In this document: positions 4,250 to 63,820 of the stretch, one piece after another
How the letters are laid out: each line of letters begins with the position of its first letter
Position numbering within the stretch: the first letter of the stretch is position 1
Made by a program: the position numbers and the translations under genes
DNA from: Polaromonas sp. A23
GTDB lineage: Bacteria > Pseudomonadota > Gammaproteobacteria > Burkholderiales > Burkholderiaceae_C
DNA: 64,000 nt
Assembly: GCF_002001015.1 (NCBI RefSeq)
Contig: NZ_MUNO01000008.1
Coordinates: 1-64,000 of the forward strand
Direction of reading: 5' to 3'
The notes under the pieces: generated by a model
Seen by the model: only the letters and a program-made list of their open reading frames with translations
Told to the model about the DNA's origin: nothing
The model's database searches: none

Positions 4250-5241
4250 GGGTAAAGACGGTGGACGCGGGCGTGCAGGCGGGAAAGACCCAGCAGTGCA
4301 TCGGTAAACGGCGTCGGAACCTGCGTCAGCTGGCCCAGTTCCCGCACCACGCTCACCAGCGCATCGAGCTCGACCGCCTTGCCGGCTTCCACGTCCTGCA
4401 ACATGGAGGTTTTGAAAGCGCCTAGCTTGAGCGTGACGGCGTGCCGGTCTTCGGGCTGTTGCTCAATCGGGAGGCCGATGCGAGCGCCTATCTCCTTGGC
4501 TTCGAGCATGATTTTCGAGATGAAGTCACGCACCAGCGTATCGCCGAGGATCAAATCGGTGGTGGCCCCGGTGAAGGCGCTGATCGGGTTGACCGTCATG
4601 TTGCCCCAGAGCTTGTACCAGGCGTCTTTCTGGATCTGCGCCGACACGCTGGCTGCAAAGCCGGCGCGCACCAACAGGTCTGCCAGCGCCTGCACGCGTG
4701 GGCTTGTCTGGCCCGAAGGCTCACCGATGATGAGGCCGTTGCCGAAATGGTTGCGAATCAAACCGGGCGCATCGACCGAGCAACTGGCATGCACCACGCA
4801 GCCGATGACGTTTGCCGCCGGGATGGCCGCGGCAATCTCGCCGGTGGCATCCACCGCCTTCAGTTGCGTGCCGGCGTAAGGGCCGCCAAAACCCTGGAAG
4901 AACCACCAGGGCACGCCGTTCATCGCCGTCAGGACGAGGGTGTCGGGGCCGATCAGTGGCGCGATGTGGCGTGCCACGTCGAGCAGCGCCGGTGCTTTCA
5001 CCGCGATGACCACGAGGTCTTGCACGCCGAGCGTCGACGGGTCGGCGCTGGTTTGCACGGCGGCGGATCGTGTGTCTGTTCCACTCGCCACACGCAAGCC
5101 GTGACTGTTCAGCGCTTCAAGCGTTGCACCCCGCGCGACCACACTGACACTGCAGCCCGCGGCAGCCAGCCCGGCGCCTATCCAGCCGCCAATGGCGCCG
5201 GCACCGTAAATACATGATTTTTGGATGTTTTTATAAGTCAT
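4246..5241 (-). CDS. 2-dehydropantoate 2-reductase family protein (PanE/ApbA-like)
   Basis: This 331-residue NADPH-dependent ketoreductase has the nucleotide-binding loop GAGAIGGWIG at about 13-22 and a conserved AWYKLWGNMTVNP segment carrying the catalytic lysine of the ketopantoate reductase family. Family members also reduce other 2-oxo acids. Its place in a catabolic operon behind a class II aldolase argues for such a role rather than pantothenate synthesis. The ATG at 5241 lies at the edge of a family A repeat (5241-5294) that fills the gap to the preceding aldolase gene. It overlaps the EamA gene downstream. Confidence 0.75.
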   Translation of the reverse strand: MTYKNIQKSCIYGAGAIGGWIGAGLAAAGCSVSVVARGATLEALNSHGLRVASGTDTRSAAVQTSADPSTLGVQDLVVIAVKAPALLDVARHIAPLIGPDTLVLTAMNGVPWWFFQGFGGPYAGTQLKAVDATGEIAAAIPAANVIGCVVHASCSVDAPGLIRNHFGNGLIIGEPSGQTSPRVQALADLLVRAGFAASVSAQIQKDAWYKLWGNMTVNPISAFTGATTDLILGDTLVRDFISKIMLEAKEIGARIGLPIEQQPEDRHAVTLKLGAFKTSMLQDVEAGKAVELDALVSVVRELGQLTQVPTPFTDALLGLSRLHARVHRLYP

Positions 5242-5294
5242 TTTGGCCTCTGGCCCTTTAGATTCGGGCGTGAGTAGCTCTAATTTTGATAGCT
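5241..5294. repeat. Family A dispersed repeat, copy 1
   Basis: This is a roughly 54-bp copy starting TTTTGGCCTCTGGCCCTTTA and ending in a stem AGCTCTAATTTTGATAGCT. It spans the gap between the class II aldolase and panE-like genes and forms the last codons and TAG stop of the aldolase (SYQN at its C-terminus). It is similar in layout to the copies near 13.8, 19.9, 25.3, 38.1, 43.5, 45.8 and 63.3 kb. Confidence 0.7.
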
Positions 5295-6050
5295 GATGTC
5301 CATCTTGTCGACCTGCCGCACCAGTGCGTCGAACACGTCCTGCCCTGCGCCGAACTGGGCGTCGAACTGGAAGGAGTCATGGGTGGTTTTCCTGGCGACA
5401 GCTTCAGGCACCGTGATCGCCGGCCCCATCGCTGCCTGCGCCATCTGGATGTCGCAGGCGCGTTGCAGGGTCCACAGCCGCACAAAGGCCAGCGGTAGCG
5501 TTTTGGCCCAGGCCAGCAGGCCGTGGTTGCGCAGGATCACCACCGGCTTGTCGCCGATGTTTTTAAGAAGGCGCGGCGCCTCGTCGGCGTGGATGGTGAT
5601 GCCTTCGAAGTCGTGATAGGCCACCAGGTCATGCAGCTGCGCAGAGTAAAAATTGTTCTGCGCCAGCCCGCACTGCGTGCAGGCCACCGCGATGCCGGCC
5701 GTGGTGTGGGTGTGCATCACGCAGTGCGCATCGGGCAGGCCATCGTGGATGGCTGCATGCACTGTGAAGCCGGCAGGGTTGACCGGATAGCGCGAGCCGT
5801 CAAGCACCTTGCCCTGCAGGTCGATCTTCACCAGGTTCGACGCGGTGACTTCGCTGTAGTGCAGGCCGAAGGGGTTGATCAGAAACTGCTTTTGTCCGCC
5901 GCTGGCGCTGTCCGGCAGCCGCACCGTGATGTGGTTGTAGATCATCTCGGTCCAGCCGAGCATGGCAAACACGCGGTAGCAGGCGGCCAGCTCGATGCGG
6001 GCTTTCCACTCGTCGGGGTGCATTCCGGGTTTTTGGAGGATGGCGTTCAT
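5280..6050 (-). CDS. Class II aldolase/adducin family protein
   Basis: This 256-residue protein has the class II aldolase/adducin fold. The metal-ligand motif MHTHTTAG lies near residues 135-142, and a third His is likely in HDLVAYHDFEG. Relatives include fuculose-phosphate aldolase, ribulose-5-phosphate epimerase and decarboxylases, so the reaction is not fixed. The start at 6050 has a clear GGAG six bases upstream. The gene sits 12 nt after hpaI. Its last residues and stop codon are encoded by a family A repeat. The C-terminus (DKMDISYQN) is therefore probably not ancestral. Confidence 0.8.
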   Translation of the reverse strand: MNAILQKPGMHPDEWKARIELAACYRVFAMLGWTEMIYNHITVRLPDSASGGQKQFLINPFGLHYSEVTASNLVKIDLQGKVLDGSRYPVNPAGFTVHAAIHDGLPDAHCVMHTHTTAGIAVACTQCGLAQNNFYSAQLHDLVAYHDFEGITIHADEAPRLLKNIGDKPVVILRNHGLLAWAKTLPLAFVRLWTLQRACDIQMAQAAMGPAITVPEAVARKTTHDSFQFDAQFGAGQDVFDALVRQVDKMDISYQN

Positions 6051-6062
6051 GGATGTCTCCGG

Positions 6063-6906: not shown

Positions 6907-7707
6907 TCAGGTGAACTTGAATTCAAAGCGACCGAGTGGGCCGTAGTCGGTGTCGAAGACGTCGCCGGTCTTTGCAACGACCGGCCGGGTGAAGGAGCCC
7001 GCCAGCACCACTTCGCCGGCTTCCAGGCATTCGCCCCAGGCGCTGAGTTTCATGGCCAGCCAGGCGACGCCGATGGCCGGGTGGCCCTGCACGCCGGCCG
7101 CCAGGCCGGTTTCCTCGACCGCGCCGTTCTGGCGCAGGATGGCACCGACCCAGGGCAGGTCGACTTCGCGAGGTGACATTTGTTTTCCACCCAGTACGAT
7201 GCCTGCGTTGGCGGCGTTGTCGCTGATGGTGTCTTGCACCTTGCGCATGGCCTTGCTGTGGCGGTCGAACTGTTCGATGCGCGCGTCGATGATTTCGATC
7301 GCAGGTTGCACGTAGTCGGTGGCATTCAGCACATCGTCCACAGTGATGTTTCGGCCTTCCAGCTTTTTCTTCAGCACAAAGGCCAGCTCGACTTCGACGC
7401 GTGGCGCGATGAAGCGGGCCGCCGGAATGTTGCCGGGTTCAAAAAACATGTCGTCCAACAGCGTGCCGTAGTCGGGTGAGTCGATCTGGCTGGAGATCTG
7501 CATCGCGCGCGAGGTCAGGCCGATCTTGTGGCCTCTGGCCACACGCCCTTCAGCGAACTTCATCTTCACCCACGCGCGTGAAATGGCATAGCCGTCTTCC
7601 ACGGTCATGCCGGGGTAACGTTTTGAAAAATGCTCGACCTGCACACGGGTCTGCTCGCTGTGGTTCAGCTCGGTGGCCAGCTGGGCAATGAGTTCGGGGC
7701 TGAACAT
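6907..7707 (-). CDS. hpaH: 2-oxo-hept-3-ene-1,7-dioate hydratase
   Basis: This 266-residue member of the hydratase/decarboxylase branch of the FAH fold hydrates 2-oxohept-3-enedioate to the HpaI substrate. It carries the family pattern [12 protein letters not shown], then [14 protein letters not shown] with the acidic metal ligands, then [13 protein letters not shown]. Length is as in HpaH of E. coli. It lies 2 nt after hpaF and 13 nt before hpaI. Confidence 0.93.
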
Positions 7708-7709
7708 GG

Positions 7710-9056: not shown

Positions 9057-10520
9057 TCAGACTCCCCAATGTGGAATGTGATGGCTGCCCAAGGACACCG
9101 CGACGTTCTTGGGTTCGCAAAACACTTCGTAGCTCCAGGTGCCGCCTTCGCGGCCGGTGCCTGATGCCTTGGTGCCGCCGAAAGGCTGGCGAAGGTCGCG
9201 CACGTTCTGGCTGTTCACGAAACACATGCCGGCTTCGACGGCGGCGGCGACACGATGCGCGCGGCCGAGGTTTTCGGTCCAGACATAACTCGATAGCCCG
9301 TACTGCGTGTCGTTGGCCAGGCGGATCGCGTCGGCCTCATCCTTGAACGGGATCAGGCAGGCGACGGGACCGAAAATTTCTTCCTGCGCGATGCGCATGC
9401 GGTTGTCGACATCGGCAAACACCGTGGGAAGCACGTAATTGCCCTTGCTGACGCGGCCCGGCAGGTCCGGTGTGCCGAGCCCGCCGCACAGCAGGGTGGC
9501 GCCTTCCTTCGGGCCGAGCTCGATGTAGCTGCGCACCTTGGCCAGGTGCCCTTGCGAAATCATGGGGCCTATGGTGGTGGCTTCATCGAGCGGGTCACCA
9601 ACCTTGATGCGTTTGGCGCGCTCCACGAACTTCGCAGCGAAGTCGGCGTAGATCGATTGCTGCACCAGAATGCGGCTGCCTGCGGTGCAGCGCTCGCCGT
9701 TGTTGGAAAAGATCATGAAGACGGCGGCGTCGAGGGCGCGCTCAAGATTGGCGTCCTCAAAAATCACGAACGGTGATTTGCCGCCCAGTTCCATGCTGAA
9801 TTTTTTCAGACCGGCAGCCTGCACGATGCGGTTGCCGGTGGCGGTGGAACCGGTGAAAGAGATGGCGCGCACGTCGGGGTGGCGGCACAGCGGCTCACCG
9901 GCGTCTTTGCCGTAGCCGTGCACGATGTTGAGCACGCCGGGCGGAATGCCGGCTTCGAGTGCGAGTTCACCCAGGCGCGCCGCTGTCATCGGCGACAGCT
10001 CGCTCATCTTCAGCACCGCGGTGTTGCCGAAAGCCAGGCAAGGTGCGACCTTCCAGGTGGCCGTCATGAAAGGCACGTTCCATGGCGAGATCAGCGCGCA
10101 GACGCCGGTCGGGTGGTACAGCGTGTAGTTGAGGTGCGTCTCGGTCGGGTAGGTGTGGCCGTCGACACGTGTGCACATTTCTGCAAAGTAATAAAAATTG
10201 TCGGCCGCGCGCGGAATCAGCTGCTTGCCGGTCTGCGCAATTACCTGGCCGCAATCATCGGTCTCCATGCGGGCGATCTCGGGCACGTGGGCGGCGATCA
10301 GGTCGCCCAGCTTGCGGATGAGTTTGGCGCGCTGCGGCGCGGGCATGCCTGCCCACTTCGGGAAAGCTTCTTTCGCCGCGGCGACGGCGGCGTTGACTTC
10401 GGCTTCGCCGCCCGCGGCTACTTCGGCCAGCAGGTCCTGTGTGGCGGGGTTGACGGTCTCGAAGTAGCTGCTGCCCGGAACGGGCTTGCCGTTGATGAGG
10501 TGATCTATTTTCATATTCAT
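9057..10520 (-). CDS. hpaE: 5-carboxymethyl-2-hydroxymuconate semialdehyde dehydrogenase
   Basis: This 487-residue aldehyde dehydrogenase oxidises the ring-cleavage semialdehyde to 5-carboxymethyl-2-hydroxymuconate with NAD. It shows the ALDH catalytic set: N148 in SPWNVPF, E244 in FSMELGGKSP and the nucleophile C278 in NNGERCTAGSR. Its ATG overlaps the hpaG2 stop by 4 nt, so the two are coupled. The dehydrogenase class is certain; the substrate comes from its position in the hpa gene order. Confidence 0.93.
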   Translation of the reverse strand: MNMKIDHLINGKPVPGSSYFETVNPATQDLLAEVAAGGEAEVNAAVAAAKEAFPKWAGMPAPQRAKLIRKLGDLIAAHVPEIARMETDDCGQVIAQTGKQLIPRAADNFYYFAEMCTRVDGHTYPTETHLNYTLYHPTGVCALISPWNVPFMTATWKVAPCLAFGNTAVLKMSELSPMTAARLGELALEAGIPPGVLNIVHGYGKDAGEPLCRHPDVRAISFTGSTATGNRIVQAAGLKKFSMELGGKSPFVIFEDANLERALDAAVFMIFSNNGERCTAGSRILVQQSIYADFAAKFVERAKRIKVGDPLDEATTIGPMISQGHLAKVRSYIELGPKEGATLLCGGLGTPDLPGRVSKGNYVLPTVFADVDNRMRIAQEEIFGPVACLIPFKDEADAIRLANDTQYGLSSYVWTENLGRAHRVAAAVEAGMCFVNSQNVRDLRQPFGGTKASGTGREGGTWSYEVFCEPKNVAVSLGSHHIPHWGV

Positions 10521-13805: not shown

Positions 13806-13822
13806 ACAAGGCTCCAGTCAGA

Positions 13823-13880
13823 TTTTGCTATTAAAAATGTAGCTACTTACGCCCGTAACACCTGGGCAAAGCGCCGATTT
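13823..13880. repeat. Family A dispersed repeat, copy 2
   Basis: This copy lies 17 nt after radA, in the opposite orientation to copy 1: it starts TTTTGCTATTAAAAATGTAG and continues with CTACTTACGCCCGTAAC. The small stem GCTA...TAGC is the marker of the family. It may act as a weak hairpin between radA and the next gene. Confidence 0.65.
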
Positions 13881-13968
13881 CACTTGCAAAACATGGCTGA
13901 ACGGTCCGCCGGACCGCCTACGCACTCCCCGCAGGAAAGAGTTTGGTCAGGGCTGCGAAAATAGCGTC

Positions 13969-19815: not shown

Positions 19816-19929
19816 GAGGGACTCCTTCTTCAATGACGGTCCATCGTGCGCGCCCAGGGAGAAGTCGCGTTAAAGCGGCTGTAAAGTTAGGTAAACCGCT
19901 GCAGCGATTTGCACCGACAAGCCTGTCGG

Positions 19930-19987
19930 TTTTGCTATTAATTAAATAGCTATATGTGCCCGTCAATCAAGGACGATCTGGCATTTT
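19930..19987. repeat. Family A dispersed repeat, copy 3
   Basis: It starts TTTTGCTATTAATTAAATAG and ends GGCATTTT. It covers the stop codon and the last few codons of the AmpG-like permease gene (KMPDRP) and the gap to the response-regulator promoter region. Confidence 0.7.
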
Positions 19988-21373
19988 CATGCGAGAAGCC
20001 AGCCAAACCAACACCAGTACAGGCACCCCCAACAAGGCCGTACTCGTGAAAAAACTGCTGTAACCGAAGGTATCCACGTAGGACCCCGAATACCCCGCCA
20101 GAAACTTCGGCAGCAGCAGCATCATGGAGCTGAACAGGGCGTACTGCGTGGCGGAGTAATTGACGTTGGTCAGGCTGGACAGGTAGGCAATGAAAGCGGC
20201 CGACGCAATGCCGCTGGACAGGTTGTCGGCCGAGATCACGAAGATCAGCGCGTGGACGTCGTGCCCGCGCGAACCCAACCAGGCAAACAGCAGGTTGCTT
20301 GCGGCACTGAGCACCGCGCCCAGCATCAGAACGCGCATCACCCCGAAGCGCATCGCCAACGCGCCACCAGCAAACGCACCGACCAGCGTCATGATGACCC
20401 CGTAAATCTTGGTGACGGCCGCTACCTCGTCTTTGGTGTAGCCCATGTCCACGTAGAACGGGTTGGCCATGATGCCCATCACTACGTCACTGATCCTGTA
20501 AACGGCAATCAGAGCCAGGATCAGCAGCGCGTGTTTGCCGTAGCGGCGCAGAAAGTCAGCAAAGGGCTCGACCAGCGCACTTTTGAGCCACTCAGCCGCA
20601 TTGCGCGCAGGCGGAATTTCGCGCGGCACCGGCTCGGGCGAAAACAGCACAGTGACCACGCCCAGCAGCATGGAGGCCGCCATCACCAGGTAAGCGGTTT
20701 GCCAGGCACCGTGCTGGTAGGCAATCACGCCGCCTGCACCGGCCACTTCGGCGCGTGCGGCAATCCACAACACGCCGGCGCCGGCCCAGATCATGGCCAT
20801 GCGATAGCCTGTCTGGTAGGCCGCTGCCAATGCGGCCTGACGTTGCATGTCGGCCGATTCGATGCGAAAAGCGTCCAGGGCGATGTCTTGCGTGGCCGAG
20901 GCAAAAGCCACTGCCAGCGCACACCACACCACCGGCAGCAGCGCGAGTTTGGGGTCGGTCAGCGCCATGCCGGTCAGCGCTGCCATGATGACGGTTTGCG
21001 ACAGCAGCAGCCAGCTGCGCCTGCGGCCGAGCAGCCGCGTCAGCAAGGGAATGGGCAGGCGGTCAACCAACGGAGCCCAAACCCATTTGAAGCCATAGGC
21101 CAGCCCGACCCAGCTCAGGTAACCAATGGTGGTGCGGTCGATGCCGGCTTCGCGCAGCCAGAAGCTCAAGGTGCCAAACACCAGCAACAAGGGCAGGCCG
21201 GCCGAGAACCCTAGAAGCAGCATGCGAAGGGTGGGTGCCTCCAGATAAACCCGCAGGGTGTCGGCCCAGCTTGGCCGGGAAGCGGGGGAGGGACCGGCGG
21301 TGGAGGCTGGAGCGTCAGAATGGGGTGTCGGCTGACGCGATGCAGCCGGTTTGTCAGATAAGGTCTCGCTCAT
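19967..21373 (-). CDS. AmpG-like MFS permease
   Basis: This is a roughly 468-residue twelve-helix major-facilitator protein. The sequence LLLGFSAGLPLLLVFGTLSF, then WVGLAYGFKWVWAPLVDRLP and SATQDIALDAFRIE is characteristic of AmpG, which imports GlcNAc-anhydro-muropeptides for cell-wall recycling. A polar, Ser/Pro-rich N-terminal 35 residues precede the first helix. The start is the ATG at 21373, divergent from the M48 peptidase gene 39 bp away. The last residues lie in a family A repeat. Confidence 0.8.
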   Translation of the reverse strand: MSETLSDKPAASRQPTPHSDAPASTAGPSPASRPSWADTLRVYLEAPTLRMLLLGFSAGLPLLLVFGTLSFWLREAGIDRTTIGYLSWVGLAYGFKWVWAPLVDRLPIPLLTRLLGRRRSWLLLSQTVIMAALTGMALTDPKLALLPVVWCALAVAFASATQDIALDAFRIESADMQRQAALAAAYQTGYRMAMIWAGAGVLWIAARAEVAGAGGVIAYQHGAWQTAYLVMAASMLLGVVTVLFSPEPVPREIPPARNAAEWLKSALVEPFADFLRRYGKHALLILALIAVYRISDVVMGIMANPFYVDMGYTKDEVAAVTKIYGVIMTLVGAFAGGALAMRFGVMRVLMLGAVLSAASNLLFAWLGSRGHDVHALIFVISADNLSSGIASAAFIAYLSSLTNVNYSATQYALFSSMMLLLPKFLAGYSGSYVDTFGYSSFFTSTALLGVPVLVLVWLASRMKMPDRP

Positions 21374-23366: not shown

Positions 23367-24986
23367 ATGCCCCACCCCGATCCATCTGCTGAGCCTGTCC
23401 TGACCCCTCACGATCCCGCGTCGCTGTCAGCGTGGGCGCCTATGGGCTCACCGGTTTTCCGGATGTTGTGGGGCACCTGGATGGCCGCCAATATCTGCAT
23501 GTGGATGAATGATGTCGCTGCTGCCTGGCTGATGACTTCACTGACCACTTCGCCGATCTGGGTGGCGCTGGTGCAATCGGCCTCGACCCTTCCGGTGTTT
23601 CTACTTGGCTTGCCGAGCGGTGCGCTGGCCGACATCCTGGACCGGCGCCGGTATTTCATCATCACGCAGTTCTGGGTGGCCGCAGTGGCGCTGGTGCTGT
23701 GCCTGACGATTGTCATGGACGTCATGACGGCGCCGCTGCTGCTGGCGCTGACCTTTGCCAACGGTGTCGGGCTGGCGATGCGCTGGCCGGTGTTCTCGGC
23801 CATTGTTCCGGAGCTGGTGCCGCGGGCCCAGTTGCCCGCCGCGCTGGCACTGAATGGCGTGGCCATGAACGCTTCGCGCATCATCGGCCCTCTGGTGGCT
23901 GGTGCGCTGATCGCGAGCGCCGGCAGTGAGTATGTTTTTATTCTCAATGCCGTGTTGTCGCTGCTTGCCGGTTTTGTGATCATGCGCTGGCGCCGGGAGC
24001 ACGTGCCCAGCCCGCTGGGGCGCGAGCGACTGATCAGCGCCATGCGTGTCGGCGTGCAGTTCGTGCGCCAGTCGGCACGCCTGCGCGCCGTGCTTTTGCG
24101 CGTAGCGCTGTTTTTCTTTCATTCCACTGCCTTGCTGGCGCTGTTGCCCTTGGTCGCGCGCGGTCTGAACAGCGGCGGTGCCGGCACGTTCACCCTGCTT
24201 TTGGCATCCATGGGTTTTGGCGCCATCTTTGTGGTTGCCTTCCTGCTGCCGCGCTTGCGCCGCACTTTCTCGCGCGATGCGCTGGTGCTCTGCGGCATGG
24301 TGTTGCAATCTGTGGCCACGGCTGTGGTGGCCTTCGCGCCCAATGTGTACATCGCCTCACCGGCGATGTTTCTGGCCGGTATGGCCTGGATCACCACGGC
24401 CAACAGCCTCAGCGTATCGGCGCAACTTGCCCTGCCCGATTGGGTACGCGCGCGTGGCATGTCGATGTTCCAGATGGCCATCATGGGCGCGAGCGCGTTG
24501 GGCGCAGCGGTGTGGGGGCAGATAGCCACGGTGACCAGTGTTCCTGTCAGCATGCTGATTGCCGCCTCGACGGCGGTACTGGCCATTGGCGCCACGCAGT
24601 TGTTGCTGCGCGACCGCAGCATCGAGGAAGACCTGACACCTTCGCGCGTGTTCAAGGTGCCCAGCGCCGAGGCACCGCCACTGACGGGCCAGATTCGCAT
24701 CACGATTGAATACCGCATTGATCCGGCCCGGGGCGAGGAGTTTCGCGCCCTGATGCAGGAAAGCCGCCGCAGCCGCCTGCGCCAGGGCGCACTGGCCTGG
24801 GAGCTGCTGCGCGACATCTCGGAACCCGGGCGCTATATCGAGCAAATCAGCGACGAGTCGTGGACCGAGCATCTGCGCCGCTTTGACCGTGTCACGGCGG
24901 GCGACGTGGCACTGCGTGATCGCAAGCTGGCTTTCCATCTGGGTGAAAGCCCTCCGGTTGTGACGCGTTTCGTGCTCGAGGCTTAG
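23367..24986 (+). CDS. MFS exporter (EntS-like) with C-terminal dimeric-barrel domain
   Basis: This 539-residue protein has twelve predicted helices over about 20-410 of the MFS_3/EntS type ([20 protein letters not shown] near the start, [16 protein letters not shown] after helix 2). It has an added soluble domain at about 445-535 ([19 protein letters not shown], then [20 protein letters not shown]) that looks like an antibiotic-biosynthesis-monooxygenase-like ferredoxin barrel. Substrate is unknown. Its TAG stop is part of the target duplication of the MITE-like element directly downstream. Confidence 0.85.
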
Positions 24987-25148
24987 GGAAGCGCTGAACA
25001 AGTCCCCTGCGGCGCGCGATCAGACGGGCTCGGGCGGTCTGCTGCGTTGAATTTCTTGCCAATAGCCAGCTATTGATTGCGAAATCCGCCTTGGCAATCC
25101 CATCCCGATCCGGCTGCCGCACATCCGCAAGGACTTATTCAGCGCTTC
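24987..25148. mobile_element. 162-bp MITE-like element with 19-bp terminal inverted repeats
   Basis: The ends GGAAGCGCTGAACAAGTCC and GGACTTATTCAGCGCTTCC are inverted copies with one mismatch in 19. They are flanked by TTAG on both sides (24983-24986 and 25149-25152), which I read as a target-site duplication. There is no coding capacity. The inside holds a stem CAATAGC-CA-GCTATTG. The left TTAG contains the stop codon of the MFS gene. Confidence 0.8.
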
Positions 25149-25288
25149 CTTAGGACTCGGGGCTGCTCACAGGCCGGCGTTGTGTATGCCTGCGTATGGG
25201 CCGTGCGTCCCGGCGGGCCGCACCGGGCCTTCCCTCGCACGGCAAGTCGGTAGATGCCAAAATTCGGCCCACCTTGCTCAATTTGAAG

Positions 25289-25344
25289 AAAATCTGCCTG
25301 TGGCCCTTATTGCACGGGCATCAGCAGCTACGCTTTTAATAGCG
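25289..25344. repeat. Family A dispersed repeat, copy 4
   Basis: This copy has a GGCCCTTATTGCACGGGC stem-like part followed by AGCAGCTACGCTTTTAATAG. It lies in the 25153-25420 gap between the MITE-like element and the allophanate hydrolase gene. The gap otherwise shows no gene; the island promoter must lie here or just after. Confidence 0.7.
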
Positions 25345-25420
25345 GATACCGATCGGCGAGTAATTTCCGACCAGAAGCCAGGCAGAAGTACACGTCACGC
25401 AGGCCTCTGCGTTACTTGGC

Positions 25421-29224: not shown

Positions 29225-29229
29225 ATATG

Positions 29230-29336
29230 GCCCCCACGCTTGTCGCTTCGCGTACTGCGCTGCCCCCCGAGGGGGCCGCTGCGCCTGCGGCCCGGCGAAG
29301 CCGGTTCCGCGGCCCCTGCTGGTCTGAAGAAACCCC
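29230..29336. repeat. Family B repeat, plus orientation, between permease and ATPase genes
   Basis: It starts GCCCCCACGCTTGTCGCTTC and ends CCTGCTGGTCTG. Its reverse complement is nearly identical over about 97 bp to 59034-59130. The core GCCCCCCGAGGGGGC can form a strong hairpin. Confidence 0.85.
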
Positions 29337-30227: not shown

Positions 30228-30449
30228 ATGAATGACACCCGCATGCTTGCTTATGTTGAAAGCACGGCTGCATTGCTGAAGCTGCCGCTTGACGCGGCGC
30301 GCACCCAGCGTGTGGCCGCGAACCTGCAGCGCACGGCCGCCATGGCGGCGCTGCTGGAAGCCGTGCCACTGACGGCGCACGACGAGCTTGCGGAAATATA
30401 CAGGCCGGCAGCCTTCCCGCCCAATGACGACGGTCATAAACAGCTATGA
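30228..30449 (+). CDS. atzG: AtzG-like small subunit (DUF4089)
   Basis: This 73-residue helical protein begins DTRMLAYVESTAALLKLPLD and ends in an acidic, proline-containing tail (AEIYRPAAFPPND). AtzG is the stabilising partner of the amidase AtzE. The ATGA overlap with the next gene (30446-30449) and the pairing with an AtzE homologue support the call. HpxX of oxalurate clusters is the other relative to consider. Confidence 0.8.
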   Translation: MNDTRMLAYVESTAALLKLPLDAARTQRVAANLQRTAAMAALLEAVPLTAHDELAEIYRPAAFPPNDDGHKQL

Positions 30450-30460
30450 AAACAATAGCA
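30441..30460. repeat. Possible family A fragment at the atzG/atzE junction
   Basis: Only the terminal stem of the repeat (CTAT...ATAG) is present, containing the ATG of the amidase gene. It may be chance; it is listed because family A ends coincide with other gene boundaries in this window. Confidence 0.3.
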
Positions 30461-31843
30461 TCTGACGCTGCTGCGATGGCCCGAGCGGTTGCTTCCGGCA
30501 AGGTCAGCGCGCGTGAACTGCTGGACGCCAGCCTGGCGCGGATTGAATCCACCGACGGCCGGGTCAACGCTTTCACGGAAAAAACGCAGGCGCGTGCCCG
30601 GGCAGAAGCCGACGCCGTCGATGCGCGGCGGGCCGCTTCGCAGCCCCTGGGGCCTTTGGCCGGTGTGCCTTATGCGGTGAAGAACCTGTTCGACATTGAA
30701 GGTGTCGTGACACTGGCCGGCTCCATCGTCAACCGCGGCGATCCGGCCGCGGCATCCGACGCCTTTCTGGTGCAGCAGATGAAGGCCGCTGGCGCCGTGC
30801 TGGTGGGCGGGCTGAACATGGATGAATACGCCTACGGTTTCACCACTGAGAACACGCATTACGGCCCCTGCCGCAACCCGCACGATCTCACGCGCATCGC
30901 CGGTGGTTCGTCGGGCGGCTCCGGCGCCGCGGTGGCCGCCGGGCAGGTGCCGGTTTCGCTCGGGTCGGACACCAACGGTTCCATCCGCGTTCCGGCCTCG
31001 CTGTGCGGTGTCTGGGGCCTCAAGCCGACCTTCGGTCGGCTGTCGCGCCGAGGGTCTTACCCGTTTGTGCACAGCATTGATCACCTGGGGCCGCTGGCGG
31101 ACAGTCTTGCCGGACTGGCGCTGGCCTACGACGCGCTTCAAAGCCCCGACGCGCTGGACCCCGGCTGCCAGGCCCTGCGCGTGCAGCCAGTCATGCCGCT
31201 GCTTGGCCGCGGGACGGCGGGCCTGCGCATCGGCGTGCTGGGCGGCTATTTTCACGACAACGCCACGCCAGCGGCGCGCGAGGTGGTCGCGCTGGCGGCC
31301 AGCACTCTGGGAGCGCAAGCCGAGGTGACCTGGCCCGACGCCGCCCTGGCGCGCGCCGCCGCCTTCATCATCACGGCGAGCGAAGGCGGTAGCCTGCACC
31401 TGAATGAACTGCGCACCCGTGCCGACGACTTCGAGCCGCTTTCGGTGGACCGCTTTATCGCCGGCGCCCTGCAGCCGGTGGACTGGTATCTCCGTGCGCA
31501 ACGTTTTCGCCGGGCCTACCGCGACAAGGTCAACGCGCTGTTTCGCGACTGGGATGTACTGCTCACCGCCGCCACATCGGTCAGTGCGCCGGTCATCGGC
31601 ACCGAGTGGCTGGACATCAACGGTACGCAGCAGCCCTGCCGGCCCTCCCTGGGTCTGTTGACCCAACCGGTGTCTTTTGCCGGCTGTCCCGTTGTTACCG
31701 CGCCGCTGTGGCCTACCGGCACCGGCGGTTTGCCGGTCGGTGTGCAGCTGATCGCCGCGCCGTGGCGCGAAGACCTCGCTTTTCGTGCAGCAAAAATTCT
31801 CAGTGATGCCGGCGTAGCCCGTGTCCAGCCCGTTCAACTCTAA
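30446..31843 (+). CDS. atzE: AtzE-like amidase (1-carboxybiuret hydrolase family)
   Basis: This 465-residue amidase-signature hydrolase has the Lys-cisSer-Ser triad K79 ([10 protein letters not shown]), S155 (GGSSGGSGA) and S179 (DTNGSIRVP), at the spacing recalled for AtzE. AtzE deaminates 1-carboxybiuret to 1,3-dicarboxyurea; the close relative HpxY acts in oxalurate breakdown, so substrate is inferred from neighbours. Its start lies in a short AGCTATGAAAACAATAGC stem that resembles the family A repeat end. Confidence 0.82.
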
Positions 31844-37271: not shown

Positions 37272-38893
37272 GCGCAACCGCAGCCATCGGCAGCCTGCCG
37301 CCGGTCACCGGGGCGTTGGCACTGGACACCTACCGGATGAGCATGCGCTTCGGCAGCTTCACGGCACTGGACAGCGTCAGCATGAAAGTGGCGCCGGGCA
37401 CGGTGCATGCGCTGCTCGGCGAAAACGGTGCCGGCAAAAGCACGCTGGTCAAATGTGTGGCGGGTTTCCAGCGGCCTTCGGAAGGCAGCATCCTGATCGA
37501 CGGCCGCGAGCAGGCGATTGACAACCCCGTGGTGGCGCGCGCGCTGGGCATCGGCATGGTCTACCAGCACTTCACCCTGGCGCCCGGTATGACCGTGGCC
37601 GAGAACCTGCTGCTGGCCGGCGGCAAAACGCCCGCCATCATCGACTGGAGGGAAAAACGCGCCGAACTCGAGGCCTTCCTGCAGACCACACCGTTCCGGC
37701 TAGCCCTCGACGCCCGCCCGCTGGACATGGCGGCCGGCGAGAAGCAGAAGCTGGAACTGCTCAAACAGCTGTATCTGCGGCCGCGCCTGCTGATCCTGGA
37801 CGAGCCGACTTCGGTGCTGACACCGCAGGAGGCCGACGAGGTGCTGGGCCATGTGCGCGCCTTCGCGCGCAGCGGACTGTGCACCGTGCTCATCATCACG
37901 CACAAGTTTCGCGAAGTCATGGCGTATGCCGACGATGTGACGGTGTTGCGCCGCGGCAAGGCGGTGCACCACTGTGCTGTCGCTTCCACCGACCCCGGCA
38001 TGCTTGCCCAGGCCATGGTCGGTGATGCGTCTGCTGCCCGGCCGGAAAGCCCCCATTCAGAAGAAAAAGTGCCTCCAGCCCTTATTTTGCGGGCGCAAAG
38101 TGCTACTGATTTCATAGCAATGCAGGCGTCACTGGAGGTCCGTGGCCTGCAGGTCATGGGTGACCGCGGCACGCTCGCGGTGCGTGACCTGAACTTGACC
38201 GTCGCGGCCGGCGAGATCCTCGGCGTTGCCGGCGTCTCCGGCAATGGCCAGCGTGAACTGGTCGAAGCCCTGGTCGGCCAGCGCGAGCGCGCAGCCGGCA
38301 TGGTGAGGGTGCAGGGCCAGCCTTATGCTGCACGGCGCGAGGAAAACCACCGCCTGAAGGTGCGCAGCCTGCCGGAGGAGCCGCTGCGCAATGCCTGCGT
38401 GGGCGAACTTTCCGTGGCCGAGAACATGGCGCTGCGTGATTTCGACCGCTCGCCGCTGTGCCAGGGAGGGCGCCTGCGTTTCGGCGCCTGGCGCAGCCGC
38501 GCACGCGAGTGGATTACCGCCTACGGCATCAAGACCCAGGGAGAAAATGCGCCCATTCGCAGTCTCTCGGGCGGCAATGTACAACGCGCCGTGCTGGCGC
38601 GCGAGCTCAACGGCGAGATCGATGTGCTCATTGCGGCCAACCCGGTCTTCGGCCTGGACTTCGCCGCCGTGAAGGAAATCCACACCCGCCTGCGGGGTGT
38701 GCGTGACCGCGGCGGCGCGGTGTTGCTGGTCAGCGAAGACCTGGACGAATTGCTGGAGCTGGCCGACCGCATCGTGGTGATGAGCGAAGGGCGGGTTGTT
38801 TTTGAAACTTCTGCTGCGGATGCCGAGCGGCAGGTTCTTGGGGCGCATATGGGTGGGGGGCATCATCAACCTTTGGCTGAGGTTGTGGTGTGA
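37268..38893 (+). CDS. ABC transporter ATP-binding protein of the BMP system, two ABC domains
   Basis: This 541-residue ATPase is of the YufO/RbsA-like double type. Domain 1 has [17 protein letters not shown] and [18 protein letters not shown]. Domain 2 has [16 protein letters not shown] and [17 protein letters not shown]. The second-domain Walker A lacks the usual GK(S/T), as is common in this group. The linker contains about 20 residues ([18 protein letters not shown]) encoded by a family A repeat (38065-38119). It should power the BMP-family importer. Confidence 0.9.
38065..38119. repeat. Family A repeat, in-frame copy in the ATPase linker
   Basis: The copy reads AAAGTGCCTCCAGCCCTTAT, then TTGCGGGCGCAAAGTGCTAC and TGATTTCATAGCA. 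It lies exactly between the two nucleotide-binding domains and keeps the frame open. Confidence 0.8.
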
Positions 38894-39620: not shown

Positions 39621-40301
39621 ATGCAACTAGACCAGGCCCAACCCTTCCCCTACAACTTCGAGCTAAAGTCCACAGCCCTCGTCATCATCGACATGCAGCG
39701 CGACTTCATCGAACCCGGCGGCTTTGGTGAGAGCCTGGGTAATGACGTGTCGCTGCTGTCGGCCATCGTGCCGGCCTGCCAGGCGGTGCTGGCGGCCTGG
39801 CGCGACGCAGGCGGCCTGGTGGTGCACACGCGGGAGGCGCACCGGGCTGACCTGTCCGATTGCCCGCCCGCCAAACGCCACCGCGGCAACCCCTCGCTGC
39901 GCATTGGCGACGCCGGGCCGATGGGCCGCATCCTGGTGGCCGGCGAGCCGGGCAACCAGATCATCCCCGCGCTGGCTCCACTGCCCGGCGAAATCGCCAT
40001 CGACAAACCCGGAAAGGGCGCCTTTTACGCCACGCCGCTGCACGAGCTGCTGCAGCAGGAAGGCATCACACACCTGGTGTTCATGGGGGTGACCACCGAG
40101 GTCTGCGTGCAGACTTCCATGCGTGAAGCCAACGACCGCGGCTATGACTGCCTGTTGCTGGAGGACTGCACCGAGAGCTACTTTCCGGCATTCAAGACGG
40201 CGGCCGTCGAGATGCTGCGCGCCCAGGGCGCCATCGTCGGCTGGACGGCCACCAGCGATCACCTTCTGTCTCTGCTGGCGACCCCGCCGGCACGGCAATA
40301 A
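39621..40301 (+). CDS. Second BiuH-like cysteine hydrolase
   Basis: This 226-residue isochorismatase-like hydrolase is a paralogue of the neighbouring BiuH (shared [43 protein letters not shown]). The triad is D24, K129 and C162. Differences include NDVSLL for YDISLT and loss of the PWPWNG start. Triuret hydrolase (TrtA), which makes carboxybiuret from triuret, is also a BiuH relative and is my preferred guess; ureidoacrylate- or peroxyureidoacrylate-type activities are alternatives. An ATG at 39600 would add seven residues. Confidence 0.8.
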
Positions 40302-41110: not shown

Positions 41111-41165
41111 GGCTATTGTTTTTGTAGCAAATGCATTGCAGAAATTGTGCCTACAGGCTCAGGTC
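41111..41165. repeat. Probable family A repeat at the 3' end of xth
   Basis: It contains GGCTATTGTTTTTGTAGCAA followed by a degenerate GTGCCTACAGGCTCAGG. It covers the xth stop codon (41151-41153) and the convergent gap to the GntR gene. Confidence 0.5.
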
Positions 41166-42035
41166 ATAGTCCACAGTGATGGGCGCATGATCCGAAAACC
41201 GCTGCGTCCTGTAGATGGTTTCGCTTTGCGCCAGGGCTGCAAATGCCGGTGTGGCCAGGTGGTAGTCCAGCCGCCAGCCGACGTTTTTGGCATAAGCCTG
41301 GCCGCGGTTGCTCCACCAGGTGTAGGCGTCGTCGGTGGTCGTGGGTTGCAACTTGCGGTAGACATCGACCATGCCGCCACCGCGTGTCGCTTTCATCGTG
41401 GGCTTACCGGTGCCGTCGGTCAGTTCCTCCACGGCTTCTTCGGCCATTTCCGCATCGCGCAGCAACTCGGTCATCCAGGCTCTTTCCTCGGGCAGGAAGC
41501 CGCTGTTTTTCCGGTTGCCCTTGAAATTCTTCAGATCGATTTCCTGATGGGCGATGTTGACGTCGCCGCACAGCACAAAGTCGCGCGTCTCCTTCAGCGC
41601 AGCGAGGTAGGGATAGAACTCCGCCAGGAAACGAAACTTGGCCGCTTGTCGCTCTTCGCCGGAGGATCCGCTGGGAAAGTAGCAACTGATGATGGACAGC
41701 TTGGGAACGCGTTTGCGGCCGGGTCGGTCAAATCGCAACTCAACGTAACGGCCTTCCGCATCAAATTCTGCCGAGCCGTAGCCGGTGATCACGTCCGTGG
41801 GCTCATGGCGGCTGTATACGGCCACGCCTGAATATCCCTTTTTCTCGGCAAAGTGAAAATGTCCCTTCAAACCGGCGATTTCCTCGAAGCGGCCGGCCAC
41901 GTCGGCCGCCTGGGCCTTGAGCTCCTGCACGCAAATACAATCCGGTTGGGTCTGGGCCACCCATTCCTGCAGTCCTTTGGTGGCAGCGGAACGGATGCCA
42001 TTGAGGTTCAGGCTGGTCAATTTAAACAAGGACAT
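41151..42035 (-). CDS. xth: Exodeoxyribonuclease III family DNA repair nuclease
   Basis: This 294-residue endonuclease/exonuclease/phosphatase-fold enzyme repairs abasic sites. Motifs are [18 protein letters not shown] (metal Glu), [21 protein letters not shown] and the catalytic [12 protein letters not shown] at the C-terminus. The ATG at 42035 has its GGAG directly adjacent. A TTG at 42029 with six-base spacing would give the usual [11 protein letters not shown] start and may be the true one. It is divergent from pyrE with only 5 nt between the annotated starts. Confidence 0.93.
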
Positions 42036-42040
42036 CTCCA

Positions 42041-42808
42041 ATGAGCACCCCAACGGTCACGCCAGGGCAAAAACAAAACAACAACAGCCAAACCGCCGAA
42101 GGTCAGGATCTGGCGCAGGAATTCGTACAGTTTGCCATCGAGTCAGGCGTGCTGCGTTTTGGTGAATTCAAGACCAAAGCCGGCCGCATGAGCCCGTACT
42201 TTTTCAATGCGGGCCTGTTTGACGACGGAGCCAAGCTGGGCCGGCTCGCGCAATTTTATGCGCGGGGGTTGCTGCTTGAGGAGAAGAGCCGCGGCCTGCA
42301 GTTCGACATGATTTTTGGGCCGGCCTACAAGGGTATTCCGTTGGCAGCGGCGGTTGCGGTGGAGCTGGCGCGGCTGGGGCGCAATGTGCCTTTTGCCTAC
42401 AACCGAAAGGAAGCCAAGGACCACGGCGAGGGCGGCACACTGGTCGGTGCGCCGGTCAAGGGCCGGGTGCTGATCATCGACGACGTGATTTCTGCCGGTA
42501 CCGCGACGCGCGAGTCGATCGCTATTATTCAGGCTGCCGGAGCTGTTCCGCATGCGGTGGCCATTGCGCTGGACCGCCAGGAAAAAGCCACGGAAAACGG
42601 GCAGGACGTGAACTACAGCGCCGTTCAATATGTTACCAATCAGCTGGGCCTGCACGTTTTCGCGATTGCCCGATTGACTGACTTGCTACAGTATCTGGCT
42701 GGCGTGCATCCCACTCCGCCGGGGGCTGGGGAACCAATGGCGGACGATTCGCTTCAGACTCACTACCAGCGTGTGCTGGCCTACAGGCAACGCTACGGCA
42801 TCGATTAA
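42041..42808 (+). CDS. pyrE: Orotate phosphoribosyltransferase
   Basis: This 255-residue enzyme of pyrimidine synthesis joins orotate and PRPP to give OMP. The PRPP motif is [13 protein letters not shown]; other marks are [13 protein letters not shown] and [15 protein letters not shown]. The N-terminus has about 25 extra Gln/Asn-rich residues ([14 protein letters not shown]). Its Shine-Dalgarno (AAGGA) lies inside the first codons of divergent xth. Confidence 0.95.
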
Positions 42809-43504: not shown

Positions 43505-43563
43505 CCCCAGAGGCTATGAGCCCTTGGCAGGGTAGCGCATGATGCTGCTATTTTGATAGCAAC
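43505..43563. repeat. Family A dispersed repeat, intergenic copy
   Basis: It lies between the convergent DUF4124 and gatB genes: CCCCAGAGGCTATGAGCCCT through GCTGCTATTTTGATAGCA. The end stem is well kept. Confidence 0.7.
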
Positions 43564-43584
43564 AAGCCATCGACCTGACCCCAG

Positions 43585-45096: not shown

Positions 45097-46605
45097 TCAA
45101 ATGCCTTGGGGCTGGCGCATGTGCCAATCGGTCGCCAGCTGGAACTGGTGGGCAGCACTCAGCAATTGCGCCTCTTTGAAGTAGTTGCCGATCAGTTGCA
45201 GGCCAACAGGCATGTGGTGCTCGCCAAAACCGGCCGGCGCGCTCATGCCGGGCAGGCCTGCCAGGCTGGACGATAGGGTGTAAATGTCGGCCAGGTAGTT
45301 GGCCACCGGGTCGTCCGATTTTTCGCCGATTTTCCAGGCCACAGTCGGTGACACCGGGCCGGCAATGATGTCGCACTGCGCAAAGGCCTTCTGGAAATCC
45401 TCGGCGATCAACCGGCGGATTTTTTGCGCTTTCAGGTAGTAAGCGTCGTAGTAGCCGTGCGACAGCACATAGGTGCCGATCATGATGCGGCGCGTCACTT
45501 CGTCGCCAAAACCTTCGGAACGAGACTTCTTGTACATGTCGGTGAGGTCGCCGTAGTGCGCCGCGCGGTGGCCATAACGCACCCCGTCAAAACGGCTCAG
45601 GTTGCTGCTGGCCTCGGCCGGCGCAATCACGTAATAGACCGGGATCGACAACTCGGTCAGCGGCAGACTCACGTCCACCAGCGTTGCGCCCAGTTTTTCG
45701 AACTCGGCCAGGGCGGCGCGCACAGCTTTGAGCACCTCGGCCGAGCAGCCAGTGCCGAAAAACTGGGTGGGGAGGCCAATTCTCAAGCCTTTTAGGGGCT
45801 CAGCCCTTTGTTCTCGGGTACTGGTAGCTATCAAATCAGTAGCATAGTCGAGGGCGGGCAGATCCAGCGAGGTGGAGTCCCGGTCCGGGTCGGGGCCGGC
45901 CATGCTGGACAGCAACAACGCGCAATCGAGTGCACTGCGCGCCATCGGCCCCGCCTGATCCAGGCTGGAGGCAAAAGCAACCATGCCGTAACGCGAGCAG
46001 CGGCCATAGGTCGGCTTGATGCCGGTGATGCCGGTCAGGGCTGCCGGCTGGCGAATCGAGCCGCCAGTGTCGGTGCCGGTCGCTGCCGGCACAAGCCGTG
46101 CGGCCACCGCGGCCGCCGAGCCGCCCGAGGAACCGCCGGGTATGCGGCTGGTGTCCCAGGGGTTTTGCACCGGTTTATAGGCGCTGTTGTCATTGCCCGA
46201 ACCCATGGCGAACTCGTCGCAGTTGAGCTTGCCCAGGGTAACCATGCCGGCGCCGTGCGTCACGCCCAGCTTGCTGACCACCGTGGCATCAAACGGGCTG
46301 CGGTAGTTGTCCAGCATCTTCGAGCCGGCGGTGGTCGGGAAGTCGCGCGTGACAAAAATGTCCTTGTGCGCCAGCGGCACGCCCAGCAGCGGGGTGCGTT
46401 CGCCAGCGGCCAGCCGCGCGTCGGCAGCGCGCGCCTGCGCGAGCGAAACTTCGGCATCGGTGGCCAGGAAGGCGCCCAGGCTGTCCTGCTGCCGGATGCG
46501 CTCGAGGAAATGTTGTGTCACCTCCACGCTGGAGACTTCACGCGCAGCGAGTTTTGCTGCCAGTTGGGCGACGCCGAGGTCGTGCAAATCTTTAGGGAGA
46601 CTCAT
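45097..46605 (-). CDS. gatA: Asp/Glu-tRNA(Asn/Gln) amidotransferase subunit A
   Basis: This 502-residue amidase-signature glutaminase of GatCAB has the catalytic Lys in [10 protein letters not shown], cis-Ser in [14 protein letters not shown] and Ser in [14 protein letters not shown]. About 16-20 residues before [12 protein letters not shown] ([14 protein letters not shown]) are encoded by a family A repeat and extend a surface loop compared with the family. It overlaps gatC by one nucleotide. Confidence 0.95.
45787..45846. repeat. Family A repeat, in-frame copy inside gatA
   Basis: The copy reads CCTTTTAGGGGCTCAGCCCT, then GTACTGGTAGCTATCAAATC and AGTAGCAT. It lies in an essential gene without disrupting the frame. 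Confidence 0.8.
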
Positions 46606-49703: not shown

Positions 49704-49800
49704 GCCCCCACGGTCGTTCACTTCGTGTAACTCCCTGCCCCCTGAGGGGGCCGCTGCGCCTGCGGACTGGCAAAGCCAGATCCGCGGCCCCTGCTTGATT
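49704..49800. repeat. Family B repeat between mreD and mrdA
   Basis: It is in the same orientation as the copy at 29230 (TGCCCCCACGGTCGTTCACT, CCTGCCCCCTGAGGGGGCCG, GGCCCCTGCTTGATTGAA), about 85% similar by eye. It is placed inside the cell-shape operon. Confidence 0.8.
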
Positions 49801-49868
49801 GAAGAGCAGCGCGGGCATTTGTTTCGCTTGTTGCGTGCACTTTCCGGCAGTTGTAGAGTTACACGGCC

Positions 49869-58935: not shown

Positions 58936-59033
58936 ATCGAGCCCCCGCGGCCCCTGCTTGTTTGAAACCTCGGTGGGTGGCCACTGACAGTTCAGAGCGA
59001 GCGGACTAACGCGATAGTGGGTGGGCTGCGCTC

Positions 59034-59130
59034 CAGACCAGCCAGGGCCGCGGAACCGGCTTCGCCGGGCCGCAGGCGCAGCGCCCCCTCGGGGGGCAGC
59101 GCAGTACGCGAAGCGACAAGCGTGGGGGCG
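59034..59130. repeat. Family B repeat, minus orientation
   Basis: It starts CAGACCAGCCAGGGCCGCGG and ends AGCGTGGGGGCG. As reverse complement it differs from 29230-29336 at only a few positions over about 97 bp. It lies in the convergent gap between the ClpP-like and GMC genes, directly against the GMC stop. The segment 58940-59033 carries a second, partial GCCCCCGCGGCCCCTGCTTG piece of the same family. Confidence 0.88.
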
Positions 59131-61204: not shown

Positions 61205-61206
61205 GC

Positions 61207-62748: not shown

Positions 62749-62824
62749 TTTGGGAACTCCATTGGGCAATCCCCAAGATTAGCGGACGGTGGCGACTTAT
62801 GCCAGTTTGAATTTCTCAGTAGTG

Positions 62825-62843
62825 TTATTAAAATTACTAATAA
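62825..62843. promoter_or_regulatory. TTATTA-N7-TAATAA dyad at the LysR gene start
   Basis: This perfect inverted repeat of six bases on each side ends on the A of the LysR start codon, in the divergent mmsA/LysR gap. It contains the T-N11-A spacing of LysR-type sites. Autoregulation and control of mmsA are inferred. Confidence 0.5.
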
Positions 62844-63820
62844 TGGACATCCAGACACTACGGATTTTTGCGGCGGTGGCCCGGGAGGGCAACCTCTCGC
62901 GTGCCGCCGACAAACTGGCCCTGACGCAGCCCGCCGTCAGCCTGCAGATTAAAGGCCTGCAAGCTGCCACGGGGCTGACACTGTTTACGCGCAGCGCCCA
63001 GGGCATGAACCTCACCCGTGACGGCGCAGCGCTGCTGCCGCTGGCCGAAAAAGTGCTGGCCGCGCAGGGCGACTTCAAAAATGCCGCGGCCAGCCTGCAC
63101 ACGCAGGTGCGCGGCCGGCTGCGCATAGGCACCATCCTCGACCCCGAGTTCACCCGGCTCGGGGCTTTCCTGAAGGTGCTGGTGGAAATGGCGCCCCAGG
63201 TCGAGACAGAGCTGCGCCAGGCCATGAGCGGCGAGGTGTTGGCCCAGATAGAGCGTGGCGAGCTGGATGTGGGCTTTTACCTGGGTACGCCCGGCCAGCC
63301 TCTTGATACCAATGGCTTTGAGTCAAATCGGCCTTCAGCCCTTTCCGCACGGGCGCAAACAGCTATTAATTCAGTAGCAGATCGGCAGGACAGCCGGCCG
63401 GCGCTGTTTGCCGTGCGCGAGCTGACCCACTTCACCTACCGGGTGCTTGCGCCGGCCGGCTGGGGGCCGCAGGTGCGCGGCAAGGGCTGGAAGGCGCTGG
63501 CCGCCTTGCCGTGGATCGCCACGCCGCCGGCGTCGGCGCATCACCGCCTGCTGGCCAGCGTGTTCGGCCCGCTGGGTGTCGAGCCGAACCGGGTTGCGCT
63601 GGTGGACCAGGAGGCCTCCATGCTCGACCTGGTCAAGTCCGGCGTGGGCCTGAGCCTGGTGCGCGATTCGATCGCGATGCGCGAGTCTCATGCGGCTGGG
63701 CTGGTGATTGCCGACCAGGTCAGCTTGCAAAGCGTGCTGAGTTTTGTCAGCCTGAGTGCGCAACGCCAGGCGCCGGTGGTTGCAAGCGCCTGGCAGGCGC
63801 TGGAGGCCGTATGGTCCTGA
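62843..63820 (+). CDS. LysR-family transcriptional regulator
   Basis: This 325-residue regulator has an N-terminal winged helix (MDIQTLRIFAAVAREGNLSR, then ALTQPAVSLQIKGLQ) and a C-terminal periplasmic-binding-like effector domain. Residues about 160-188 (SNRPSALSARAQTAINSVAD) are encoded by a family A repeat, inserted between GTPGQPLD and PALFAVREL, which makes the protein longer than the usual 300. It probably regulates the divergent mmsA operon. Confidence 0.9.
   Translation: MDIQTLRIFAAVAREGNLSRAADKLALTQPAVSLQIKGLQAATGLTLFTRSAQGMNLTRDGAALLPLAEKVLAAQGDFKNAAASLHTQVRGRLRIGTILDPEFTRLGAFLKVLVEMAPQVETELRQAMSGEVLAQIERGELDVGFYLGTPGQPLDTNGFESNRPSALSARAQTAINSVADRQDSRPALFAVRELTHFTYRVLAPAGWGPQVRGKGWKALAALPWIATPPASAHHRLLASVFGPLGVEPNRVALVDQEASMLDLVKSGVGLSLVRDSIAMRESHAAGLVIADQVSLQSVLSFVSLSAQRQAPVVASAWQALEAVWS
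63323..63380. repeat. Family A repeat, in-frame copy inside the LysR gene
   Basis: The copy reads TCAAATCGGCCTTCAGCCCT, then CGCACGGGCGCAAACAGCTA and TTAATTCAGTAGCA; it is the best-preserved copy in the window. The frame stays open through it. Confidence 0.85.

Follow-up and report, generated by a model that had tools for sequence, protein, structure and literature searches.

Why should one sequence of about 65 bp recur some ten times, both between and inside genes, within 64 kb of bacterial DNA? The question is raised by positions 1 to 64,000 of contig NZ_MUNO01000008.1 of Polaromonas sp. A23 (assembly GCF_002001015.1), hereafter the window, in which an earlier note had listed ten places as copies of one dispersed repeat. 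We describe here that repeat as an element ending in a 17-bp palindromic core, which is very probably held in place and not actively inserted. Its roughly 400 copies per chromosome are tentatively read as a chromosome-wide recognition sequence for a putative dedicated factor; taken as a whole, this is the explanation that we favour, although we give it somewhat less than an even chance.

Anatomy and abundance of the element

Three parts make up the element, in this order: an AAAT/TTTT-GGCC block, an inverted repeat that is rich in GC and varies in sequence by genus and, at its terminus, the two-fold-symmetric core GCTAYnnWWWnnRTAGC. The consensus of 128 gapless copies from this genome was sharp over about 70 columns, running from a T-rich lead through AAAT or TTTT, GGCC, AGCCCTT, five variable bases and ACGGGCGCAAGCA to the core (GCTA, nine A/T-rich bases and TAGC) and an A-rich tail. 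Columns 50, 51, 52, 64 and 65 were without variation at the printed precision, columns 57–59 were practically always A or T, and the half-sites of the symmetric core were near-invariant.

In the same 128 copies, no long-range covariation was found by mutual information, and inner core positions paired below the expectation for independence (28 vs. 41.4 and 31 vs. 48.6), which indicates that, in this genome, the dyads behave as DNA sequence and not as a maintained hairpin. Further, the consensus contained no T-run 3' of the stems, and its two ends were unlike each other, so that the terminal inverted repeats which are the hallmark of miniature inverted-repeat transposable elements (MITEs) were not found. 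A putative upstream hairpin was dropped, as its score of 4.86 compared with 4.84 in swapped copies. The Rfam search gave no match at gathering scores, only one unrelated microRNA match (E 0.66) far under the cut-off.

Counted as exact matches only, the tighter core pattern GCTAYNNWWWNNRTAGC occurred 380 times in the genome vs. twice in a reversed control, a strong chromosomal over-representation; the corresponding values were 432 vs. 114 for GCTA-N9-TAGC and 92 vs. 1 for AGCCCTT-N6-CGGGC. Copy numbers derived from the profile are lower bounds, with the best 150 (or 116) candidates scored per genome. Of the 42 tight cores in the window and in sampled parts of contigs 1 and 2, 34 agreed with the consensus of the adjoining block at 12 or more of 20 positions, so that most cores sit in full, often degenerate, elements. 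The mean spacing of exact cores was about 12 kb in the genome, making the window denser than average.

Within the window, GCTA-N9-TAGC was found eight times, whereas 100 shuffled versions contained it 0.22 times on average and never more than twice; the count is well above what base composition would yield by chance. A sequence-only profile built from 15 copies (seven of the window and eight elsewhere in the genome) detected seven full-length window copies, each with E ≤ 7e-14 (Table 1); all seven are training copies, so their profile scores are not independent, as the pattern counts are. The ten places of the earlier note do belong to one family, comprising the seven full-length copies, a degenerate one at 30414-30464 that lies outside the training set, an exact core at 41111 and a one-mismatch core at 43505. 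The flanks of the core at 41112-41128 matched 8/20 consensus positions only, and by profile the place at 41111 was at chance level (E 0.27); the same flanks as at 43535..43566 hold exact cores in Polaromonas L039, L040 and L041. Also as noted earlier, copies lie within as well as between genes: three are in open reading frames (ORFs; ABC ATPase, gatA and LysR-type genes). The copy at 63317 ranked second among 150 genome copies scored.

Table 1. Places in the window that carry the element or its core
Feature	Position	Strand	Profile score	Context
Full-length copy	5229..5301	+	55 bits	overlaps 3' end of aldolase-II-type gene 5280-6050 (-) and start of ORF 4246-5241 (-)
Full-length copy	13819..13891	-	54.2 bits	intergenic, between 13805 and 13969
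Full-length copy	19926..19997	-	47.5 bits	overlaps 3' end of MFS transporter gene 19967-21223 (-)
Full-length copy	25281..25351	+	53.8 bits	intergenic; common to G026 and G004
Degenerate copy	30414..30464	+	22.3 bits (E 5e-6)	intact core 30443-30459; start of amidase gene
Full-length copy	38056..38126	+	53.1 bits	in frame in two-domain ABC transporter ATPase gene 37268-38893 (+)
Exact core, degenerate flanks	41112..41128			near 3' end of Exo_endo_phos-type gene 41151-42053 (-)
Degenerate copy	43535..43566		6.2-6.6 bits (chance level alone; E 0.4)	one-mismatch core; between DUF4124 gene and gatB
Full-length copy	45780..45851	+	50 bits	in frame in gatA 45097-46605 (-), read antisense
Full-length copy	63317..63387	+	66.2 bits	in frame in LysR-type regulator gene 62789-63820 (+)

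Gene context was assigned with a simple codon-based gene scorer, and most stretches of this genome were picked around copies. By this measure, 112 exact sites were distributed over 47 tandem, 21 convergent and 3 divergent gaps, 11 gene 3' ends, one 5' end, 21 gene interiors and 8 stretch edges, while random positions fell into tandem, convergent and divergent gaps 1337, 471 and 437 times, respectively. Divergent gaps thus held 3 of 71 classified intergenic sites vs. about 19% of intergenic background positions. Intergenic sites mostly lay no more than 100 bases past a stop codon, which in tandem gaps was the upstream stop. The earlier note had the element repeatedly used to end genes: the positional part of this stands, given the excess over 3' ends and the preference for places after a stop, while any transcription termination by the element is putative. 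With regard to orientation, 27 sites in tandem gaps had the same direction as the genes and 20 the opposite one (12 and 9 within genes), and 57 of 116 neighbouring pairs were on the same strand (58 expected), i.e., without strand polarity along contigs. One AGCCCTT-N6-CGGGC match of this genome (G000:C3:131671-131688) is located inside the Competence-domain match of comEC (131176-132087).

Conservation at orthologous places

All six comparable copies (5229, 13819, 19926, 25281, 30414 and 38056) were present at the same places in the related genomes G026 and G004, which are 82–85% identical to the window over the stretch compared; the profile detected no additional copy in the fetched stretches of either genome (that of G004 has a contig break). 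At 5229, the core reads GCTC...TAGC in all three genomes, and the copy at 13819 is shared by G033 as well. The half-sites were retained in both relatives at 30414 and, despite an altered centre, in 8/8 positions at 38056. The copy at 19926 had an orthologue in 9 of 10 other aligned Polaromonas and was replaced in G025, with neighbouring intergenic sequence that could barely be aligned. In gatA, the half-sites of the copy at 45780 were 8/8 in L039-L042, 7/8 in L043 and 6/8 in L044.

For orthologous copies at six window places, half-site positions were identical in 157/160 cells and the nine central positions in 112/180, values obtained from the best 17-mer per stretch with a bonus for half-site matches, from non-independent rows and with the G028 row out of register. 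In element-bearing relatives, four genes kept half-sites of 8/8 in 14 of 17 genome-gene comparisons, while the remaining three gave 7, 7 and 6 matches, each genome being used once per gene and the distant amidase matches to gatA (L165, L175, L178, L191, L197 and L198) being excluded; elsewhere in the same genes, third-position identity, counted at identical residues only, was 0.51–0.73. Between genes, copy boundaries were too eroded to show a clean empty site with a target duplication, and at the intergenic place c11965 in L214, genomes with the element had the longer sequence.

The element within protein-coding genes

The purK gene carries a copy at 7412-7465 of locus L214 that ranked 23rd among 150 genome copies scored. 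In copy-free or copy-poor Polaromonas (L251, L253, L257, L258, L266 and L268), purK at this site was equal in length or differed by -3 to +9 nt, and a similar helix was encoded by different codons; where Polaromonas had few copies or none (eight genomes), 5 or 6 of 8 half-site positions matched. In most of the high-copy genera covered (24 genomes of 23 genera, selected by their copy number), the core falls on the same codons, with half-sites of 8/8 in 10, 7/8 in 11 and 6/8 in 3 of the 24. Further, the rare Ile codon ATA stood at the site in 20/24 purK genes vs. 15/272 other Ile codons of the same genes.

Comparison with solved homologues gave a difference of 0 amino acids at the element in a CitE-like gene, -2 and +7 in PutA, +7 in ThiL and +9 in AceE. 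As the element spans 19–23 amino acids, no length difference near that was observed in any of the four. The stretch of the ABC gene around the copy at 38056 was 12 nt longer than in Variovorax L084, and gatA gave an ambiguous picture, being equal to that of Hydrogenophaga in length and longer than that of many genera. Since purK with and without the element is (nearly) equal in length and the homologues have no matching insertion, in-frame insertion of the Rickettsia type, considered for the gatA, ABC and LysR copies, was rejected.

The earlier note had inferred an active history from the density of copies and their repeated use to end genes, and had called for orthologous loci with and without copies to be compared. 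The comparison in purK revealed no inserted length of the element and, with six of six comparable copies shared by G026 and G004, none extra and no element-length insertion in the in-gene copies compared, the results speak against such mobility. It is on account of the purK and within-genus comparisons that we rate maintenance in place so highly.

Distribution and genus dialects

Exact core counts in 41 Polaromonas genomes ranged from 0 to 592, with zero in eight, two of which are at least 99% complete. In 250 genomes of the window's GTDB family, counts spanned 0 to 604; 129 genomes had a match, and about 50 had at least 100. Many genera of this family hold hundreds of cores and many others hold none. 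The highest count in 194 genomes from 49 other families of the order was 9. Thus, in the samples covered by the search, only the window's GTDB family contained genomes with copies in the hundreds, which bears out the tie to a Comamonadaceae-type group that had been suggested. Around gatA, 10 of 80 named loci (six Polaromonas, two Variovorax, one Comamonas and one Rhodoferax) held 19 exact cores; the nearest named relatives of the GatA protein were those of Polaromonas.

Other genera showed the same architecture with a different middle block beside the core: GCGCTT...AAGCGC in genus g77, less clearly in g4 and g5, and AGCCGGCGTATTTAYTGCC in g30. These loci were selected by the core pattern, so the constancy of the core is partly due to that choice. 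In g77 (L301), the orthologous gene end of the MFS gene at 19926 has a site (82.5% identity over 246 amino acids).

Regarding mobile DNA, 350 kb of plasmid pPNAP01 of P. naphthalenivorans CJ2 had no exact core, about 29 being expected at the density of this genome, and 50 kb of a JS666 plasmid yielded neither an exact core nor a profile match. One very strict pattern of the full element matched no viral contig exactly, and phage records gave only eight short partial matches with E of 0.6 or more. In the listed stretch of G037, the longest gap without sites holds copper-resistance genes. The Y1 transposase family PF01797 was present in 40/41 Polaromonas, copy-free ones included, and no core was found in the 4 kb around the better-scoring PF01797 gene of this genome. 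Mobilisation by transposases associated with repetitive extragenic palindromic (REP) elements (REP-associated tyrosine transposases, RAYTs) was rejected, as PF01797 is independent of copy number and its gene is not flanked by the core.

Candidate explanations

In the reading that we favour, a dedicated sequence-specific factor would read the element as double-stranded DNA, and selection or biased replacement would keep copies in place with no ongoing insertion. The mechanism may resemble that of the DNA uptake sequences (DUS) of Neisseriaceae and Pasteurellaceae: a receptor would favour motif-bearing DNA, alleles nearer to the motif would be taken up and recombined more often, and such biased uptake could give rise to hundreds of copies, and maintain them, wherever the chromosome tolerates them, codons included. 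Dialects would then shift with the receptor, and wholesale loss would be expected where the system is lost. The analogy is drawn because position stability, the codon-level pattern of purK, dialects, a plasmid without exact core and wholesale loss combine as they do in DUS; from this combination we infer the protein reader and its role in DNA uptake. That the element is an uptake-type signal specifically is, by this analysis, plausible at a level short of an even chance. Slightly less probable is the broader proposal of a Comamonadaceae self-recognition language, in which a long palindromic-core element in genus dialects would mark chromosomal DNA for uptake and recombination, would overwrite codons without insertion and would have arisen independently of the systems of Neisseriaceae and Pasteurellaceae.

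Several observations weigh against uptake. ComEC (PF03772) did not follow copy number, being present in 36/41 Polaromonas including the copy-free G013 and G040; it occurred with and without the motif, and a correlation between the two was discarded. Known uptake sequences are 10–12 bp long (about 30 bp in the extended form of Pasteurellaceae), non-palindromic and denser; a cytoplasmic dimeric protein would account for the symmetric core no less well, and the information held by full elements exceeds what recognition should require, so that they may have been copied from a common source. The evidence that gene-end sites are conserved between genera is no more than suggestive, at 4/10 vs. 80/480 background genes (one-sided P 0.07, coding frames only, with the place at 19926 as one of the four). 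Spacing was even in G024 (coefficient of variation 0.65, null 0.94) and not in G037 (1.01, null 0.96), where the first 10 kb of the copper gap contain two looser cores and a second long gap carries ordinary core genes such as dnaX. On pPNAP01, the reversed control was also 0 and one weak element-like match was detected (26.7 bits), and a weak match (E 3e-3) occurs on pADP-1 and two further plasmids. The pADP-1 sequence (NC_004956.1 33904-33963), a 77% match to the element, lies between an amidohydrolase gene and IS1071, and might indicate a Comamonadaceae origin of adjacent DNA.

Because the core is symmetric and copy number does not correlate with ComEC, binding sites of a chromosome-associated protein that acts as a dimer in the cytoplasm (a nucleoid, segregation, repair or roadblock-termination factor) rank close behind uptake, as a serious though somewhat improbable alternative. 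The palindrome would be the dimer site, and the GC-rich inverted repeat would serve a second dimer or protein, with a specificity that has drifted from genus to genus. The two-fold core with A/T at columns 57–59, a conservation pattern resembling that of protein sites (half-sites kept, centre drifting), the preference for gene 3' ends with few divergent sites, and pPNAP01 without an exact core all agree with this; on the other hand, no protein of this kind is known to us that has long sites in such numbers (about 400 in a genome), strand polarity is absent, and eight of 41 Polaromonas and many genera without exact cores would be odd for a housekeeping factor. Descent from an ancient REP- or MITE-like mobile repeat, with the transposase lost or inactive and the core later domesticated, appears unlikely. 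It would account for the high copy number, the genus-specific sequence, the surplus information per copy, the REP-like placement at gene ends, counts of 0 to 592 within one genus and the greater length of c11965 where the element is present; yet purK and the CitE-like gene show no net insertion, the six comparable copies are fixed in relatives, pPNAP01 lacks an exact core, PF01797 is indifferent to copies, and the consensus ends form no terminal inverted repeats. Least probable by far is an RNA element of 3' regions (a terminator, processing or stabilising hairpin), since neither the missing covariation and under-paired inner core nor the occurrence of both orientations in tandem gaps and genes, the absence of Rfam matches and of a T-run suits it, whatever the 3'-end preference, the two inverted repeats and the potential GC-rich stem of several genera may say in its favour.

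That many genera carry several hundred conserved, sequence-specific sites on each chromosome implies a factor and a process for which we found no name. The family comprises common environmental bacteria, and an uptake signal, if true, would add another language of this kind and allow partners in DNA exchange to be predicted; sites of a chromosome protein, if true, would be unusual in their length and number. Copy-free sister species offer ready-made controls in the search for the factor.

Relation to known sequences

REP elements, associated with RAYT transposases, are dispersed palindromic repeats with hundreds of copies at gene 3' ends, as is the element; it differs from them in its lack of correlation with a Y1 transposase and in the 21 of 112 exact sites inside genes. 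Rickettsia palindromic elements occur in frame within proteins as insertions that lengthen them, in contrast with the 0 amino acids added in purK and the CitE-like gene and the -2 to +9 in PutA, ThiL, AceE and the ABC gene.

PMC3630211 describes, for DUS of Neisseriaceae, dialects, intragenic sites, association with terminators and DUS-free genera. The element resembles these DUS in its many chromosomal copies, its constant core with dialects that follow phylogeny, its in-gene sites and its motif-free relatives. It differs from them in length and symmetry, DUS being non-palindromic and 10–12 bp long with a proven role in uptake (PMC3630211), while that of the element is putative.

The earlier note considered the repeat undescribed, which proved nearly right. 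Table 7 of PMC5217627 (2017) lists among "potential novel motifs" ATAGCT(N)22CAAAAG with 125 copies in Polaromonas naphthalenivorans CJ2 and GCTTAT(N)5AAGCG with 114 copies in Acidovorax ebreus TPSY; they are mostly intergenic near genes, some in genes and rarely divergent (A. ebreus), and were judged not to be transcription-initiation signals. Judged by sequence, both pairs are probably fragments of the element: ATAGCT(N)22CAAAAG occurred three times in the sampled stretches of this genome, each time within element-like sequence, and the A. ebreus motif seems to resemble the GCGCTT-type middle block of other genera. Where that table has two unconnected spaced pairs in two genomes, the present data give one element of about 65 bp with a palindromic core, dialects and in-place conservation in many genera. 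Among the matches listed for uptake sequences or REP in Comamonadaceae, Polaromonas intergenic repeats and palindromic repeats, no other description was found. What appears new is the recognition of a single element, together with its span, its conservation and its dialects; a genome-wide chromosomal signal is, as a general kind, already known.

Other repeats

The Betaproteobacterial repeat element (BRE), as outlined in PMC3110155, likewise has Comamonadaceae among its hosts and some copies in coding sequences; being about 90 bp long, 69% GC and often in tandem in Bordetella, it is set apart from the element by description. A GC-rich dispersed repeat of about 100 bp lies at 29216-29330 of the window, with related sequences at 33429-33475, 49718-49805 and 59025-59129, and is 91–99% identical across Polaromonas. 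Compared by description, it fits BRE better than the element does and may be the published BRE.

A sequence of about 170–180 bp at 24977-25159 is likely a MITE: its ends (arms 24977-25005 and 25131-25159) form imperfect terminal inverted repeats, and other Polaromonas have many matches to it at about 80–95% identity. In locus L214, some 550 bp (9826-10390; G000:C50) match many places in related genomes on both strands and so represent an inverted-repeat family in themselves. Finally, the window contains direct repeats at 36883-37155 and 39901-40173, 77–79% identical and separated by 3018 bp, as well as several long inverted arms at 39021-39556; these perhaps reflect duplicated transporter genes.

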